Below are positions 1,667 through 12,332 of a stretch of 42,177 nucleotides of DNA, in pieces (position 1 is the stretch's first letter; every line of letters begins with the position of its first letter). The DNA comes from Deltaproteobacteria bacterium (GTDB lineage: Bacteria; Lernaellota; Lernaellaia; JACKCT01). The notes below the pieces were generated by a model that was not told the origin of the DNA, did not search any database, and saw nothing but the letters and a program-made list of their open reading frames with translations. Location: assembly GCA_020845895.1 (NCBI GenBank), contig JADLEX010000138.1, positions 1-42,177 on the forward strand, in the 5' to 3' direction. The translations under genes were made by a program, and so were the position numbers.

Positions 1667-3061
1667 ATGGCGGAAAATCTGCGGAACTTGCCCGCCATCG
1701 GACGATGGCTGAGCGAACCGGTATTTGCCGAGGCATTGGCGCGGCACGGCCGGTCGCGGGTGGTCGCGGCGATGCGCGAGGTCCTCGCGGCCGAGCGGAA
1801 ACGGCGGACCTGCGGCTCGAGCCCCGTTTCGATCGAGGAACTCGTCCACCTTGTCATCCGTCACCTGCAAACGGGGACGAGAGCGCGGCTTCGCCCGGTC
1901 ATCAACGCGACCGGGATCATTCTTCACACGAACCTGGGTCGCGCGCCGCTCGCGGAGTCGGCGATCGAGGCCGTCACGCGGACGGCCCGCGGCTACTCGA
2001 ATCTGGAATACGACATCGAATCGGGCGAGCGCGGTTCGCGGCACGACATCGTGCGGGACAAGCTGGCGCGTCTGGCCGGCGCGGCCGACGCCATGGTCGT
2101 CAACAACAACGCGGCGGCGGTCCTGCTGGTGCTCAACACGCTCGCGCAGAGCCGCGAGGTGATCGTCAGCCGGGGCGAACTCGTGGAGATCGGCGGGTCG
2201 TTTCGCATCCCCGCCGTCATGGAAAAAAGCGGTTGCCGCCTCGTGGAGGTCGGGACGACCAACAAGACGCACGCCGCGGACTATCGGGCCGCCGTGACCG
2301 ACGCCACCGCGCTCTTCCTCAAGGTCCACCGCGGCAATTTTCGCATGGAGGGCTTCGTCTCCGAGGTCGGCGTCGGCGAACTCGCGCGCATCGGGGATGA
2401 GATGGGCATTCCGGTCGTCGAGGACCTGGGCAGCGGATGCCTTGTAAACCCGGACGGCGGCGGATTGGGCGACGAGCCCACCGTGGCCGCGTCGTTGAAA
2501 GCCGGCTGCGCGGCCGTCACGTTTTCGGGCGACAAGCTGCTGGGCGGGCCGCAGGCGGGCGTCATTGCGGGACATGCCGAGGTCGTCGAAGCCTGTCGAA
2601 ATAATCCGCTGGCCCGGGCGCTGCGCGTGGACAAGATGACGCTCGCCGCGCTCGAGGCCACGCTCGCTTGTTACGAACATCCCGAAACCTTGCACGACAA
2701 GGTGCCGGTGCTGCGCATGGCCTCGACGCCGGTCGATTCGCTGCGCCGACGCGCACGGTCCATGACGTCGCGACTGCGCCGCGCGCTGGGCGACGCCGCG
2801 GCCGCTCGCGTTGTCGAGACGCGGTCGCGCATGGGCGGGGGCAGTCTGCCCGGCGGCGATCTGCCCGGCGTGGCGGTGCGCATCGACGCGGCGTCCATGT
2901 CGGCGAACGAACTCGAACGCGCGCTGCGGCTCGGCGATCCGCCCGTCGTCGGGCGCATCGCGGACGGCGCCGTGCTCATCGAAATGCGCACGTTGCTTGA
3001 CGGTGAAGACGCGCTCGTGGAAAAATCCCTGTGCAACATTCTGGGGCCGGGCGCGAAATGA
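1667..3061 (+). CDS. selA: L-seryl-tRNA(Sec) selenium transferase SelA
   Basis: SelA is the PLP enzyme that converts seryl-tRNA(Sec) to selenocysteinyl-tRNA(Sec) using selenophosphate. The 464-residue length is normal for bacterial SelA. The N-terminal cap (LRNLPAIGRWLSEP) is followed by INATGIILHTNLGRAPL, NLEYDIESGERGSR and VEVGTTNKTH, all classic SelA blocks. The PLP lysine is K290 in TFSGDKLLGGPQAG, equivalent to E. coli K295. The ATG at 1667 is chosen because the N-terminus aligns with the family there. The next gene overlaps its stop (ATGA). SelB, SelD and tRNA-Sec are not in this window. Its presence supports reading the in-frame UGA of the selenoprotein at 10268-11080 as selenocysteine. 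Confidence 0.97.
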   Translation: MAENLRNLPAIGRWLSEPVFAEALARHGRSRVVAAMREVLAAERKRRTCGSSPVSIEELVHLVIRHLQTGTRARLRPVINATGIILHTNLGRAPLAESAIEAVTRTARGYSNLEYDIESGERGSRHDIVRDKLARLAGAADAMVVNNNAAAVLLVLNTLAQSREVIVSRGELVEIGGSFRIPAVMEKSGCRLVEVGTTNKTHAADYRAAVTDATALFLKVHRGNFRMEGFVSEVGVGELARIGDEMGIPVVEDLGSGCLVNPDGGGLGDEPTVAASLKAGCAAVTFSGDKLLGGPQAGVIAGHAEVVEACRNNPLARALRVDKMTLAALEATLACYEHPETLHDKVPVLRMASTPVDSLRRRARSMTSRLRRALGDAAAARVVETRSRMGGGSLPGGDLPGVAVRIDAASMSANELERALRLGDPPVVGRIADGAVLIEMRTLLDGEDALVEKSLCNILGPGAK

Positions 3062-3473: not shown

Positions 3474-4490
3474 ATGTTTCCGGTGAGGGTCGGTTTGGCG
3501 CTCGGCGGCGGCGCGGCGCGGGGGCTCGCGCACCTGGGCGTCGTCGAAACGCTGTGCGCCGCCGGAATCCCCGTTCAGGTTGTGGCCGGCACGAGCATGG
3601 GCGCGCTCGTGGGGGCGATGTTCGCCCAAAAAGCCGACGCGACGTCGATGCTTGCCGACGCGACGCGTTTTCTGCGTTCGCCCGAGTTTCGCCAGGCGCG
3701 CATTCACCGATTGCAGCGCGAGACCGCCGGCGAAAAAAGCGTGCTCGACGCGGTCAGCCGCTATATCTCGCGCGGGCGCGTGTTGGCCTCGACGGTCACG
3801 CGGCCATCGGTGCTCGACGCCGAGGATCTGTACGAATTGCTCGGGTTCTTCGTGGACGATCGCGACATCCGTTCTCTGCACGTCCCCTTTTTCGCGGTGG
3901 CCGCCGATCTGCGGACGGGCGAGGAGGTGATCCTCGATCGCGGACCGGTCATCGATGCCGTGGCGGCCTCGTCCGCCGTGCCCGGCGCGTTTCCGCCCAT
4001 CGTCGTCGGCGGACGCGAATGTGTGGACGGCGGCGTGGTCAACATGGTGCCCGTGAGTGTTCTGCGCGACATGGATCTCGATTACGTGATCGCCTCGAAC
4101 GTATCGCACGAACTCCCCGTACCCGCCGACGCGATGAAGGCGCTCGCCACGCACTTTCGCACGCACGAAATCACCAAGCGCACGCTCACCCGGTTGCAGG
4201 TGCGTTTCGCGGATGCCGTCATCACGCCGCAGATCGGCCAGATCCATTGGGCGGATTTCACCAAGTCCGACGAGGTGATCGAAGCCGGACGGTTGGCGGC
4301 GCGGGGCGCGATCGATACAATCCATCGCGATCTGAAACGACTCGGACGTCGGCCGCGCTTTTGGCGCAAGCCGCGGCGTATTCCGCCGGAGCACGGAATT
4401 GTGCCGCCGATGTCGCCGCTCCCCTCGCCGGCGATCGAAGCTGCGCCCGCCGACGCGACCGAACCTTCCACGGAGGAACTCGACCTGTGA
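3474..4490 (+). CDS. Patatin-like phospholipase (RssA/NTE type)
   Basis: A serine acyl hydrolase of the patatin family, 338 residues, probably cytoplasmic or membrane-associated and acting on phospholipids or lysophospholipids. All family landmarks are present: oxyanion loop GGGAARGLAH at residues 11-20, nucleophile S41 in GTSMG, and the catalytic dyad aspartate D185 in VDGGVVNM. No signal peptide is visible. ATG 3474 places the protein immediately ahead of the first beta strand; a GTG at 3459 is an alternative adding five residues. The proline-rich C-terminal ~40 residues look disordered. The stop overlaps the next gene by 4 nt, so it heads the operon patatin - aminopeptidase - RluD - PgeF. 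Confidence 0.9.
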   Translation: MFPVRVGLALGGGAARGLAHLGVVETLCAAGIPVQVVAGTSMGALVGAMFAQKADATSMLADATRFLRSPEFRQARIHRLQRETAGEKSVLDAVSRYISRGRVLASTVTRPSVLDAEDLYELLGFFVDDRDIRSLHVPFFAVAADLRTGEEVILDRGPVIDAVAASSAVPGAFPPIVVGGRECVDGGVVNMVPVSVLRDMDLDYVIASNVSHELPVPADAMKALATHFRTHEITKRTLTRLQVRFADAVITPQIGQIHWADFTKSDEVIEAGRLAARGAIDTIHRDLKRLGRRPRFWRKPRRIPPEHGIVPPMSPLPSPAIEAAPADATEPSTEELDL

Positions 4491-5908
4491 CCGAGAAAAA
4501 AGACGACTCGCTCAAATCCCTTCGCAAGACTTTGATGCGCGAGCGCCGCCACGCGGCCGACGTGCTCGACAACACCCGCAAGGCTGATGCGTACCGTTTT
4601 GCCGACGACTACATCGACTACGTCTCCGCGGTGAAGACCGAGCGCGAATCGACGCGATGGTTCGCCGATCTGCTCGCGCGAAGAGGCTTCGCCGACGCGT
4701 CGGGCTCCGCCGAATCCGCGCGCTCCGTCTTCGTCGCGTATCGCAACCGCGTGATCGCGGCGGCGCGTCTCGGGACTGCGCCGTTCGATGCCGGACTCAC
4801 GATCGTCGCGGCGCATCACGATTCCCCGCGTCTCGATCTCAAGACGAACCCGATCTACGAGGATCTCCAGTTCGCGATGCTCAAGACGCACTACTTCGGC
4901 GGCGTCCGCAAGCATCAGTGGGTGGCGCGACCGCTGGCCATTCACGGAGTGGTGGCGCTCGCCGACGGACGCCGTGTGGACATCGCGATCGGCGAAGATC
5001 CCGCGGACCCCGTATTCACCATCGCGGATTTGCTGCCGCATCTCGCCGCGAACACGCAGTCGCAGAAAAAACTCGCCGAGGCGATTCCCGCCGAAAAACT
5101 CAACGTCATCATCGGCGGCATTCCGATCGGCGGGACCGAGGACAAGGATCGATTTCTGCTCGGCGCGCTGCGTCTGCTGCATGAGCGATTCGGGATCCGC
5201 GAGGAGGATTTCGTCAGCGCGGACATCGAGATCGTGCCCGCGGGCCCGGCCCGTTACGTCGGGCTCGACCGCGCATTCATCGGCGCGTACGGCCACGACG
5301 ACCGCTGTTGTTCATATGCCGCGATGCGCGCACTCATCGACGCGAATGACGCGACGCGAACGCGCGTGGCGATCTGTTTCGACAAGGAAGAGGTCGGCTC
5401 CTTCGGCGACACCGGCGCGCAGGGATACTTCCTGAAATTTCTCGTTGCCAGGCTCATGGAGTGCGCGGGAGCGAAGCCCGACGCGCTGGCCGTCGAGCGC
5501 ACGCTGCACAATTCGTTTGTCATTTCCGCCGACGTCGGCGCGTCGATGGACCCGGACTGGAAGGATGTTCACGACCGGCGCAATGCGGCCTTCGCGGGGC
5601 ACGGTATCACGATCAAAAAGGCGACGGGCCAGCGCGGAAAGACGGCCGCGTCGGAGGCCTCCGCGGAGACCGTGGCGCGGCTGCGCGAGATTCTGACGGC
5701 GGCGAATGTGCCGTGGCAGAACTCGTCGATGGGCAAGGTGGACGAAGGCGGCGGCGGCACCATCGCGAAGTTCATGGCGATTCACGGCGCCGAGGTGATC
5801 GACGCGGGGCCGCCGGTGCTCGGCATGCACAGCCCTTTCGAAATCCTTCACGTTTTTGACCTCTACAGCGCCTACGCCGCCTATCGCGCGGTGTTCGAGT
5901 CCGTCTGA
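4487..5908 (+). CDS. M18 family metallo-aminopeptidase
   Basis: A 473-residue zinc aminopeptidase of the M18 family, clostridial/bacterial type. Metal-site and catalytic blocks are in order: AHHDSPRLDLK (H110), GAYGHDDRCCSYAA, DKEEVGSFGDTGAQG, SADVGASMDPDWKDVH and LGMHSPFEI. It trims N-terminal residues from peptides in the cytoplasm. The GTG start at 4487 is chosen because it overlaps the patatin stop (GTGA) and is preceded by GGAGG at 4472-4476. The upstream continuation of the frame is a shadow of the patatin gene. The middle domain (residues ~140-230) corresponds to the family's butterfly insert. Confidence 0.93.
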   Translation: MTEKKDDSLKSLRKTLMRERRHAADVLDNTRKADAYRFADDYIDYVSAVKTERESTRWFADLLARRGFADASGSAESARSVFVAYRNRVIAAARLGTAPFDAGLTIVAAHHDSPRLDLKTNPIYEDLQFAMLKTHYFGGVRKHQWVARPLAIHGVVALADGRRVDIAIGEDPADPVFTIADLLPHLAANTQSQKKLAEAIPAEKLNVIIGGIPIGGTEDKDRFLLGALRLLHERFGIREEDFVSADIEIVPAGPARYVGLDRAFIGAYGHDDRCCSYAAMRALIDANDATRTRVAICFDKEEVGSFGDTGAQGYFLKFLVARLMECAGAKPDALAVERTLHNSFVISADVGASMDPDWKDVHDRRNAAFAGHGITIKKATGQRGKTAASEASAETVARLREILTAANVPWQNSSMGKVDEGGGGTIAKFMAIHGAEVIDAGPPVLGMHSPFEILHVFDLYSAYAAYRAVFESV

Positions 5909-9489: not shown

Positions 9490-10271
9490 CATGGGATCAG
9501 GTCCTTCCATTGACCCGTGATGCCGATGTGCGTGATCGCGAAATCGTAACGAAGAGGATCATCGGGCGCGAAGCTCCGCAGCGCGTCGGTGACCTCGATC
9601 GCGGCGCGGCGGTCGTCGCTCGCGCGGCGCAGCAGGCCGAGTCGACGTGAGATCCGCGCGACGTGCGTGTCGAGGGGCATGACGAGGCGCGACGCGCCGA
9701 ACTCCGACCACAGTCCGAAGTCGATGCCGTCGGCGTCCCGCACCATCCAGCGCAGAAACAGCGAAAACCGCTTGCAGGCGCTGCCGTCCGCGGGATCGGG
9801 CAACAGATAACGCACGTTGGGGCGAACCGCCCCGCCCGCGCGGAATTGCGCGACGAACCGCGACATGGCGGCGTCGATGGGTTCGCCGCCGCAGTCGCCC
9901 TCGCGAAACGCGGCGCGGAGGCTGCCGTGTTTTCGCAGGAGATCCGCCGTGCGTGTGAGAAACTCGTTCATGTCGTCGCGCGTAGTGAAACGGTGAACGA
10001 AATTCGCGGGCAGGGGGGAGTGGCGCGGATCGAAGTCGATCAACGCGCCGTGCAGATCCGGCCCGAGCGCATCGAAAACGCGCGACACCGACGCCCGCAC
10101 CTGCGCGGCCCGGCCGTAGGCGAGCGCCGACGCGATAAACGCCGCGACCTCGATGTCAGCGGGGCGCTCAAACCGATGTACAAGATCAACGGGATCGTGA
10201 TGACGGTGCCGGACGTGATGAAAACGCGCGACGAGGTCGTCGAGAAACACTTGAACTTCGCGACGGTTCAC
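9489..10271 (-). CDS. TIGR02757 (DUF2400) family protein
   Basis: A 260-residue protein matching the TIGR02757/DUF2400 family of unknown function. Recognisable blocks are DPVDLVHRF, EVAAFIASALAYGR, KRFSLFLRWMVR and LVMPLDTHVARISRRLGL, then YDFAITHIGI near the end. The last blocks recall helix-hairpin-helix DNA-glycosylase folds, but no catalytic residue can be assigned with confidence. The GTG start at 10271 overlaps the stop of the upstream selenoprotein gene (GTGA). The long upstream open frame is a shadow of that gene and was excluded. It is the last gene of the ten-gene minus-strand operon. Confidence 0.8.
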   Translation of the reverse strand: MNRREVQVFLDDLVARFHHVRHRHHDPVDLVHRFERPADIEVAAFIASALAYGRAAQVRASVSRVFDALGPDLHGALIDFDPRHSPLPANFVHRFTTRDDMNEFLTRTADLLRKHGSLRAAFREGDCGGEPIDAAMSRFVAQFRAGGAVRPNVRYLLPDPADGSACKRFSLFLRWMVRDADGIDFGLWSEFGASRLVMPLDTHVARISRRLGLLRRASDDRRAAIEVTDALRSFAPDDPLRYDFAITHIGITGQWKDLIP

Positions 10272-11080
10272 GACGTACCTGGCTCCCAGGGGTCGGCGTA
10301 TGTCTCGCGCCGCCAGCGATACGGCAGATCGACGATCGCGGGGGCATCGGCGCGCGCGAGCAGGTCGAAGGCGTCCTGAATCACACGCCGCTGCTGCGAA
10401 GCGTTCTCGGGTTCGCCGAGCGGATGGCCGAACGGCCAACGCACGCACACCGCACGTGGCGGTTTCACCTTCTCGGTGATCGCCCGGCTGAGCGAAATCG
10501 ACACCGTGGAAATTCCTCTCTCTTCGAATGCGCGTTGGATCAGTCCGACCGACTGATTGCAGATCCCTCAGGCGGGGGTGAGGAACGCGACCTCCACCCC
10601 CTCCGCCACCGCCGCGGCTGCAACCTCGGGCGCGGTGCGATCGATCAGCGTTGCGAGTTGGGGACCCTGAACGTGCCCCATGAACGACCACGCGTGTATA
10701 TGCAGTGCGCCGATGACGCCGAGTCGCGCGGCCTCGCGCATGCGGTCGATCGGCAGCACGATGTTCACGTCGCGGTCGGCATCACGGTGATCGTAGTAGT
10801 CGTGCGTGATCGTGAGGTTTCCGCCGCCAGTTTCAATGACGCGATACGACGCGTCGCCCACGTCGCGGCTCATATCGAACGGTCGATCGCTCGCGTGATG
10901 CACGCCCGCCGTGGTAACGAGCGCGACGCGGCACTCGCGAAGCGGTTTTCGCATCGGTGCCCAGGGTGTGGTCGCCGAGCACACGGCCTCGAATCGGGTT
11001 TCCCAGTTTTCGCGCAGGCCCGGCACCTTCGCGAACGCCCATCGGCCCGCCGCGTCCTTCAGCCTCTTGATGCGATCCAT
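10268..11080 (-). CDS. Selenoprotein of the glycine/sarcosine/betaine/D-proline reductase B (GrdB/PrdB-like) family, Sec171
   Basis: The frame from ATG 11080 runs 170 codons to a TGA at 10570-10568 and continues for a further 99 codons to a TGA stop at 10268, giving 270 residues if UGA is read as selenocysteine. The family signature spans the UGA: AFLTPA-U-GICNQSVGLIQR, a UxxC redox motif (Sec171, Cys174). Both flanks match the family: RKPLRECRVALVTTAGVH and ITHDYYDHRDADRDVNIV before it, and VCVRWPFGHPLGEP after it. A SECIS-like hairpin lies just downstream. selA is in the same window. The start overlaps the TIGR04282 gene by 22 nt and the end overlaps the TIGR02757 gene by 4 nt. The physiological substrate is unknown; no GrdA/GrdC-like partner is nearby, so a redox role outside amino-acid fermentation is likely. 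Confidence 0.9.
10539..10570 (-). promoter_or_regulatory. UGA selenocysteine codon with bacterial SECIS-like hairpin
   Basis: On the minus strand the UGA occupies 10570-10568. A perfect 7-bp stem (AUCAGUC 10557-10551 with GACUGAU 10545-10539) closes a 5-nt loop GGUCG. The loop carries the GGUC of the E. coli fdhF SECIS apical loop, and 17 nt separate the UGA from the loop, within the spacing SelB requires in characterised bacterial SECIS elements. Confidence 0.8.
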
Positions 11081-11682
11081 GCCTCGATCTCCGGAAACTT
11101 CTTCATGTCGTCCGCCGTGTCGAGATCGGACTGCGTTTCGAGCATCCGCGTGCGAAGCCCGAACTCGGCCGCGCGTCGCAGCGTTTCGGCCATGACATCC
11201 GCATGACCGTACCGCAGTCCCTCCAAAAACCCCGTGACCTGTCGCGCGAACCCGACGGCCACGTATCCGCCGTCGTCGGCGGGAATGAACACCATGTCGT
11301 GTCGATCGAGTTCGTTCAAGAAGGTTTCGACATGATGCGCACGCAAGCCCGGCGCGTCGCATCCCACGAGCGCCACGCGGCGAGCGCCGTCGCGAAACGC
11401 ATCGGCGAGCGCGTTCGCCATGCGCGCGCCCAGATCGTCGCCTCGTTGCGGATGGAATTCTGGATCTTCCCCGAGCCACGCGCGCATCAGGGATTCATCC
11501 TCCGGCGGCGTGAAATGAATGCGAACAGCGGCGCCCTGCACGAGCCGAAGCTGCGCCGTGACTTGAGCGCCGAGCCGCCGATAGACGGCGAGCGCGGCGT
11601 CGTCGCCGATAGCGGCCGCAAGGCGCGTCTTCACGGTTCCGAGGCGCGGCGATTTCGCGAAGAGGCATAGCACATCGGTCAT
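11059..11682 (-). CDS. TIGR04282 family glycosyltransferase-like protein (arsenosugar-cluster type, DUF2064)
   Basis: A 207-residue GT-A-fold nucleotidyl/glycosyltransferase-like protein. It begins MTDVLCLFAKSPRLGTVKTR, the usual TIGR04282 opening with the nucleotide-binding KTR. VALVGCDAPGLRAHHV supplies the metal-binding D-x-P block, and FIPADDGGYVAVGF is the family's second hallmark. Members occur beside TIGR04283 glycosyltransferases in clusters named for arsenosugar biosynthesis, though most genomes with the pair have no proven arsenosugar. ATG 11682 overlaps the stop of TIGR04283 (ATGA). ArsM and ArsS are not in this window, so the product is uncertain. Confidence 0.85.
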   Translation of the reverse strand: MTDVLCLFAKSPRLGTVKTRLAAAIGDDAALAVYRRLGAQVTAQLRLVQGAAVRIHFTPPEDESLMRAWLGEDPEFHPQRGDDLGARMANALADAFRDGARRVALVGCDAPGLRAHHVETFLNELDRHDMVFIPADDGGYVAVGFARQVTGFLEGLRYGHADVMAETLRRAAEFGLRTRMLETQSDLDTADDMKKFPEIEAWIASRG

Positions 11683-12332
11683 CGTCGATCCGTCCCGCGC
11701 CGCGCGAGCCAGGTCACCGCCTTGCCGTAGTGACGGAGCGTCAACGCGAAGTATCCGTGTCGTTTCCACGCGCGGTCGCTGATCCGCACGGACACGGGTG
11801 CCATGCGCAGATGACCAAGGCGACGCAAATCGAGCACGAGCGCCATGTCTTCCAGCGCGGGCGGCGGCGCGAATCCACCGACGGCCAGGAAGTCGGCGCG
11901 CCGACAGAACAGCGCCTGATCGCCGTATGGCATGCCGAAGACGGCGCAGCGCAGCGCCACGCCGAGCTCGATGACGCGGTTCGCCGCGCGCCGGCGTTCG
12001 AGCCCGAACCGAAACGCGCCGAGCGAAACGGAGGCGTCGCCGAGGATGCGCTCGACATGCGCGCGGTATCCGTCCGGCAACATCGTGTCGGCATGGCAAA
12101 ACAGCAGGAGGTCACTCGTGGTCCGCGCCGCGCCTTCATTCATCTGCGCCGCGCGGCCCGGTTTGGTTTCGATCACGCGGACGCCGTGAGTGCGGGCCAC
12201 GTCGCACGTTGCATCACGGCTCCCGCCATCGACCACCACAAGTTCATCGGGGCGTTCGCGCGACGCGGCGTCGAGGCAGGCGGGAAGATGAGCTTCCTCG
12301 TTCAGAGTCGGAACGATGATCGCGAGCGACAT
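11679..12332 (-). CDS. TIGR04283 family glycosyltransferase (GT2)
   Basis: A 217-residue family-2 glycosyltransferase. It opens MSLAIIVPTLNEEAHLPACL and shows VVDGGSRDAT, the metal-binding FCHADTMLP (DxD-like HAD) and YGDQALFCRR. These match TIGR04283, the usual partner of TIGR04282. It lacks membrane segments except a possible amphipathic C-terminus and is probably cytoplasmic. It starts 3 nt after the upstream outer-membrane protein stop and overlaps TIGR04282 by 4 nt. The sugar acceptor cannot be told from sequence. Confidence 0.87.
   Translation of the reverse strand: MSLAIIVPTLNEEAHLPACLDAASRERPDELVVVDGGSRDATCDVARTHGVRVIETKPGRAAQMNEGAARTTSDLLLFCHADTMLPDGYRAHVERILGDASVSLGAFRFGLERRRAANRVIELGVALRCAVFGMPYGDQALFCRRADFLAVGGFAPPPALEDMALVLDLRRLGHLRMAPVSVRISDRAWKRHGYFALTLRHYGKAVTWLARRGTDRR

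Follow-up and report, generated by a model that had tools for sequence, protein, structure and literature searches.

The window, by which we mean the whole 42,177-nt stretch of DNA analyzed here, carries a minus-strand gene in which, as comparative and genomic evidence shows, an in-frame UGA is evidently read through as selenocysteine (Sec) with a conserved SECIS-type hairpin. We are highly confident that this gene encodes a selenoprotein and that its predicted product belongs to a stand-alone PrdB/GrdB-like (PF07355) group. The main features of the locus are as follows:

10271 to 11080, minus strand: coding sequence of the PrdB-like selenoprotein, 270 residues with Sec at 171 (translation with TGA read as U; homologues in 46 of 386 genomes)
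10568 to 10570, minus strand: Sec codon UGA, residue 171, first position of the UxxC motif U-G-I-C (TGA in 80 of the 80 closest GTDB relatives)
10539 to 10557, minus strand: SECIS-type hairpin, very probably genuine, with a 7-bp stem and loop GGUCG (folding; covariation)
9492 to 10271, minus strand: downstream gene, DUF2400/TIGR02757, GTG start at 10271-10269 (PF09674 1e-67; TIGR02757 over cut-off)
11062 to 11679, minus strand: upstream gene, TIGR04282 glycosyltransferase-like (DUF2064; 178.9 bits versus a cut-off of 134)
11682 to 12332, minus strand: upstream gene, TIGR04283 family glycosyltransferase (200.9 bits versus a cut-off of 182)
1667 to 3061, plus strand: selA, L-seryl-tRNA(Sec) selenium transferase (TIGR00474, 569 bits; sole copy in the genome)

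Gene anatomy and locus

The minus-strand frame at 11080-10268 consists of 170 codons, a TGA at 10570-10568, 99 further codons and a terminal TGA at 10270-10268, which matches exactly the two same-frame halves described in an earlier note on this DNA. Translation would start at an ATG at 11080, with a GGAG box 8 nt upstream. The Sec codon sits in the motif TPA-U-GICNQSVGL, which contains the UxxC motif noticed earlier. The selenoprotein gene shares bases with both neighbors, at its start with the end of TIGR04282 and at its stop with the GTG start of DUF2400; these overlaps place it inside a tightly packed apparent operon. In G002, a genome of the same family, a DUF2400 gene likewise follows the homologue, in the same order as in the window. 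On the plus strand, selA lies about 7 kb away, the distance given in the earlier note. Elsewhere in the window, the 784-residue open frame at 3554-5905 (plus strand) matches an M18 aminopeptidase domain only on residues 325-783; its first 320 residues are without any match and may represent an extra domain or a spurious extension of the frame.

The window is GC-rich, and at least 90 open codons flank the TGA on both sides in 49 of its 962 TGAs, 2 of which also have a similar perfect hairpin. The anatomy of a UGA plus a hairpin is thus, by itself, not beyond chance. What makes the selenoprotein call secure is the presence of TGA at this codon in relatives, the covariation of the hairpin and the purifying selection past the TGA; taken with the Sec machinery of the genome, TGA conservation and hairpin covariation uphold the selenoprotein interpretation.

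Conservation of the UGA and selection on both halves

Homologues occur in 46 of the 386 genomes, spread over bacteria, and most have one TGA in frame. Relatives were also sought in GTDB species genomes with patterns that left out codon 171; a search with the single protein returned 0 matches and a 35-row alignment was too diverse, while an 11-row alignment proved effective, and the scan gave at least 446 genome stretches with relatives. Among the best 80 of these 446, all 80 have TGA at codon 171, and they represent Desulfuromonadales, Nitrospirota, other deltaproteobacteria, Wallbacteria, SAR324, Chloroflexota and others. The same codon is TGA in 33 distinct sequences from further genomes. 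Cys, Ser or Gly occupies the Sec position in distant relatives only. One such distant relative (L085, G358:C43) has Cys replacing Sec within a CPETCH motif that contains an extra residue.

Median dN/dS is ~0.10 after the UGA and 0.12 before it, indicating that both halves of the gene are under purifying selection; the conserved in-frame UGA is thus flanked by coding constraint on both sides, as in a bacterial selenoprotein. The earlier note had named homologues in close relatives with a frame ending at this position as a refuting result; none was found, and homologues retain the TGA, with frames that run on beyond it. This includes G002, the sole other member of the window's family with the gene. 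In the G002 homologue (L067, G002:C1:324574-325270), the frame differs by one base in a C-run immediately ahead of the TGA, which is likely an assembly error because this assembly is 77% complete and in 30 contigs.

A probable SECIS-type hairpin downstream of the UGA

Just after the UGA, the transcript can form a perfect 7-bp hairpin with a 5-nt loop (AUCAGUC-GGUCG-GACUGAU). The earlier note had reported this hairpin at 17 nt after the UGA; the stem length stands, but it is the loop that starts 17 nt after the UGA, and the stem starts at 10 nt. The fold energy of the region is ordinary (minimum free energy, z = 0.51 and -0.47, not significant).

Comparison across homologues is more informative. 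In an alignment of 30 distinct sequences, 92.9% of stem cells are paired, versus 77.7% after shuffling and 16-44% when slid out of register, and double changes in the stem number 27 versus 8.6 expected. The covariation score is 0.408 versus 0.142 in shuffles (0/500). Particularly clear is a synonymous pair formed by a Gln wobble base and a Leu first base, which is Watson-Crick in 77 of 78 sequences (G-C in 54, A-U in 23, G-U in 1) and in 45 of 78 under shuffling. In the first sequence set, a Gly wobble base also tracks the first base of a Ser/Thr/Ala codon in 28 of 28. The shuffle statistics ignore relatedness, and the more cautious figure comes from a tree test that accounts for it, in which on average 5.8 of the 6 independent supported switches run in the same direction and 0 in the opposite one (median p 0.03). 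Owing to these compensatory changes at synonymous sites, the hairpin very probably represents a true element of the SECIS type, despite its unremarkable energy.

The loop GGUC highlighted in the earlier note is present here, but is a minority type: among 105 distinct sequences, CGUGG occurs in 54, GGUCG in 18 and others in 33. The conserved feature is instead a G at loop position 2, found in all 105; the hairpin of the window gene, shortly after the UGA, has this apical-loop G. In distant relatives that lack the TGA, the hairpin positions pair less well, yet 3 of 6 still pair 5 of the 7 positions.

Selenocysteine machinery

The genome of the window (G000; assembly of 4.98 Mb, 99.5% complete) contains tRNA-Sec (anticodon UCA), selA, selB and selD; the earlier note had asked for a search for selB, selD and tRNA-Sec, whose absence would have spoken against a selenoprotein. 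Its selD (L012, G000:C17:65379-66293) itself contains an in-frame TGA, with the active site GAGUACKL. Across the survey, tRNA-Sec is present in 37 of the 39 genomes with a TGA homologue, a few of which carry a homologue of the full-length GrdB type, versus 174 of 386 overall (Fisher p 4e-12). The two others, G145 and G037, have a TGA homologue and no tRNA-Sec at a strict cut-off, and both assemblies are fragmented. Within the window's own family, G002 has both the gene and tRNA-Sec, and G001 (99% complete) has neither the gene nor tRNA-Sec at the strict cut-off, which suggests that the Sec trait was lost within the family.

Family assignment and alternative readings

One could argue that the TGA is an ordinary stop, that the 170 codons before it are a complete gene, and that what follows is either a small gene of its own or decayed remains. 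If the genome had no Sec machinery, the TGA would indeed end translation, and a GTG-started frame of ~78 codons is present downstream of it. However, this genome has the machinery, purifying selection acts alike on the two halves, the TGA is kept in relatives rather than scattered, the hairpin covaries, and an AlphaFold model of the read-through protein (mean pLDDT 91) predicts a confident single domain with residue 171 inside. We regard an ordinary stop as extremely improbable and as effectively refuted by TGA conservation together with covariation at synonymous sites. Another rival reading takes the selenoprotein for a true PrdB, which is the Sec-containing subunit of D-proline reductase. 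The product passes the curated cut-off of PF07355 (GRDB; 35.1 bits versus 22, 1.2e-8) and thus belongs to this superfamily, its best family match is PrdB itself (TIGR04483, 1.1e-48), and Sec occupies the equivalent position in true PrdB (TAGUGTCHR in L170-L172). Against this, the match reaches only 165.7 bits versus an equivalog cut-off of 300, and the substrate-site motif reads THDYYDH in the window group versus SHGGYDN in PrdB. In a quick tree with some long branches, a branch with support 100 sets the four reference PrdB rows apart, and the window protein is not among them. PrdA, moreover, is missing: the window genome has no TIGR04480 match, and none over the cut-off was found in 37 homologue genomes including it (36 others), whereas prdA lies two genes upstream in 3 of 4 reference PrdB loci, the fourth (Peptoclostridium, L169) not having it there. 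True PrdB is therefore very unlikely. Full-length GrdB fits no better (TIGR01917, 41.8 bits versus a cut-off of 602; 270 residues versus ~430). The earlier description of a GrdB/PrdB-like protein with Sec at this position thus holds as far as likeness and the PrdB Sec position go, and is refined here to a stand-alone PrdB-like protein, distinct from GrdB and PrdB proper.

The gene neighborhood raises another possibility, namely that the stand-alone selenoprotein acts in an arsenosugar-type pathway of its neighbors TIGR04282 and TIGR04283. Its gene and theirs overlap in one apparent operon, genes of both types also lie near a homologue in Nitrospirota (L103), the TIGR04282 type near one in Kouleothrix (L167) and the TIGR04283 type in G002 (L067, same family), and the ArsS radical SAM family TIGR04167 is encoded elsewhere in the window genome. 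However, ArsS is on another contig and the linkage is seen in only 4 of ~120 loci surveyed. Neighborhood clustering revealed no conserved partner; other loci have a rhodanese upstream (14 Desulfuromonadales-type loci), an FAD-oxidoreductase-like protein (10 loci) or a B12-radical-SAM protein (7 loci), labels that rest on one representative each and, for the FAD protein, on sequence reading only. A search for literature linking TIGR04282 or TIGR04283 with selenium gave nothing relevant. On balance, we consider a role in an arsenosugar-type pathway unlikely.

Predicted structure and possible function

Searching the PDB with the predicted model by fold gave no similar solved structure, and searching it by sequence gave no real relatives (the match with E = 2e-4 spans 29 residues and is to a de novo designed protein). 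With nothing similar in the PDB, the fold gives no functional hint.

During translation, the hairpin downstream of the UGA would recruit SelB carrying Sec-tRNA(Sec), by which the ribosome would read UGA-171 as Sec. In the mature protein, we infer that the Sec171/Cys174 pair does redox chemistry: Sec171 would attack a small-molecule substrate, the resolving Cys174 would close a selenosulfide, and a thioredoxin-type donor would re-reduce it. The most likely function, which we propose tentatively and at slightly less than even confidence, is the selenol/thiol-dependent reduction of a small molecule.

The selenol of PrdB and GrdB works jointly with a pyruvoyl subunit. Having no such subunit, the window group would be expected either to reduce the substrate by itself or to rely on an unrecognised partner. 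Since it would act without the pyruvoyl partner PrdA, the window protein is probably not a D-proline reductase. Whether the stand-alone PrdB-like proteins form a separate family, mislabelled in surveys, that performs a Sec-dependent reduction of an unnamed substrate with no pyruvoyl partner and a fold outside the PDB, we judge to be evenly balanced.

Comparison with known systems

Relative to PrdB (TIGR04483), the window protein is homologous over most of its length, with Sec aligned and the UxxC motif followed by H or N. GDxSFR, an (S/T)H motif, DxNxxxP and UxxC are common to both groups, whereas the region after the His differs. The four PrdB genes, as judged by eye, have no hairpin at the same position. 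With GrdB, GrdF and GrdH, the likeness is confined to the C-terminal part (PF07355 positions 200-345) and UxxC; these proteins have ~435 residues versus 270 here, and scores are 42-53 bits versus cut-offs of 602-800.

PrdB-like UxxC selenoproteins of PF07355 are a kind known since 2005. The Sargasso Sea survey listed 42 UxxC 'proline reductase PrdB' selenoproteins out of 310 (PMC1088965), and the GOS survey 235 'proline reductase PrdB' sequences with UxxC, with PF07355 in its table (PMC2398784). Another survey assigns a 'proline reductase' to Anaeromyxobacter and a Geobacter (PMC1794560), and current reviews still class such proteins as D-proline reductase (PMC13188914, PMC9312934).

The window group resembles the marine 'PrdB' sequences in its PF07355 membership (the family in the GOS table), its UxxC with Sec and its abundance in environmental bacteria. 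The survey papers call these proteins proline reductase, whereas the window group is without prdA and lies outside the PrdB clade. The most interesting outcome of the analysis is that name and genome content disagree: PrdB-named selenoproteins rank with the most abundant ones of marine metagenomes, yet the window group is without PrdA. For annotation, the window gene offers a clear case of one gene that an automatic caller would probably split in two. If the group is indeed a separate enzyme, 'proline reductase' would be the wrong job title, and its Sec-dependent reaction would become a testable question.
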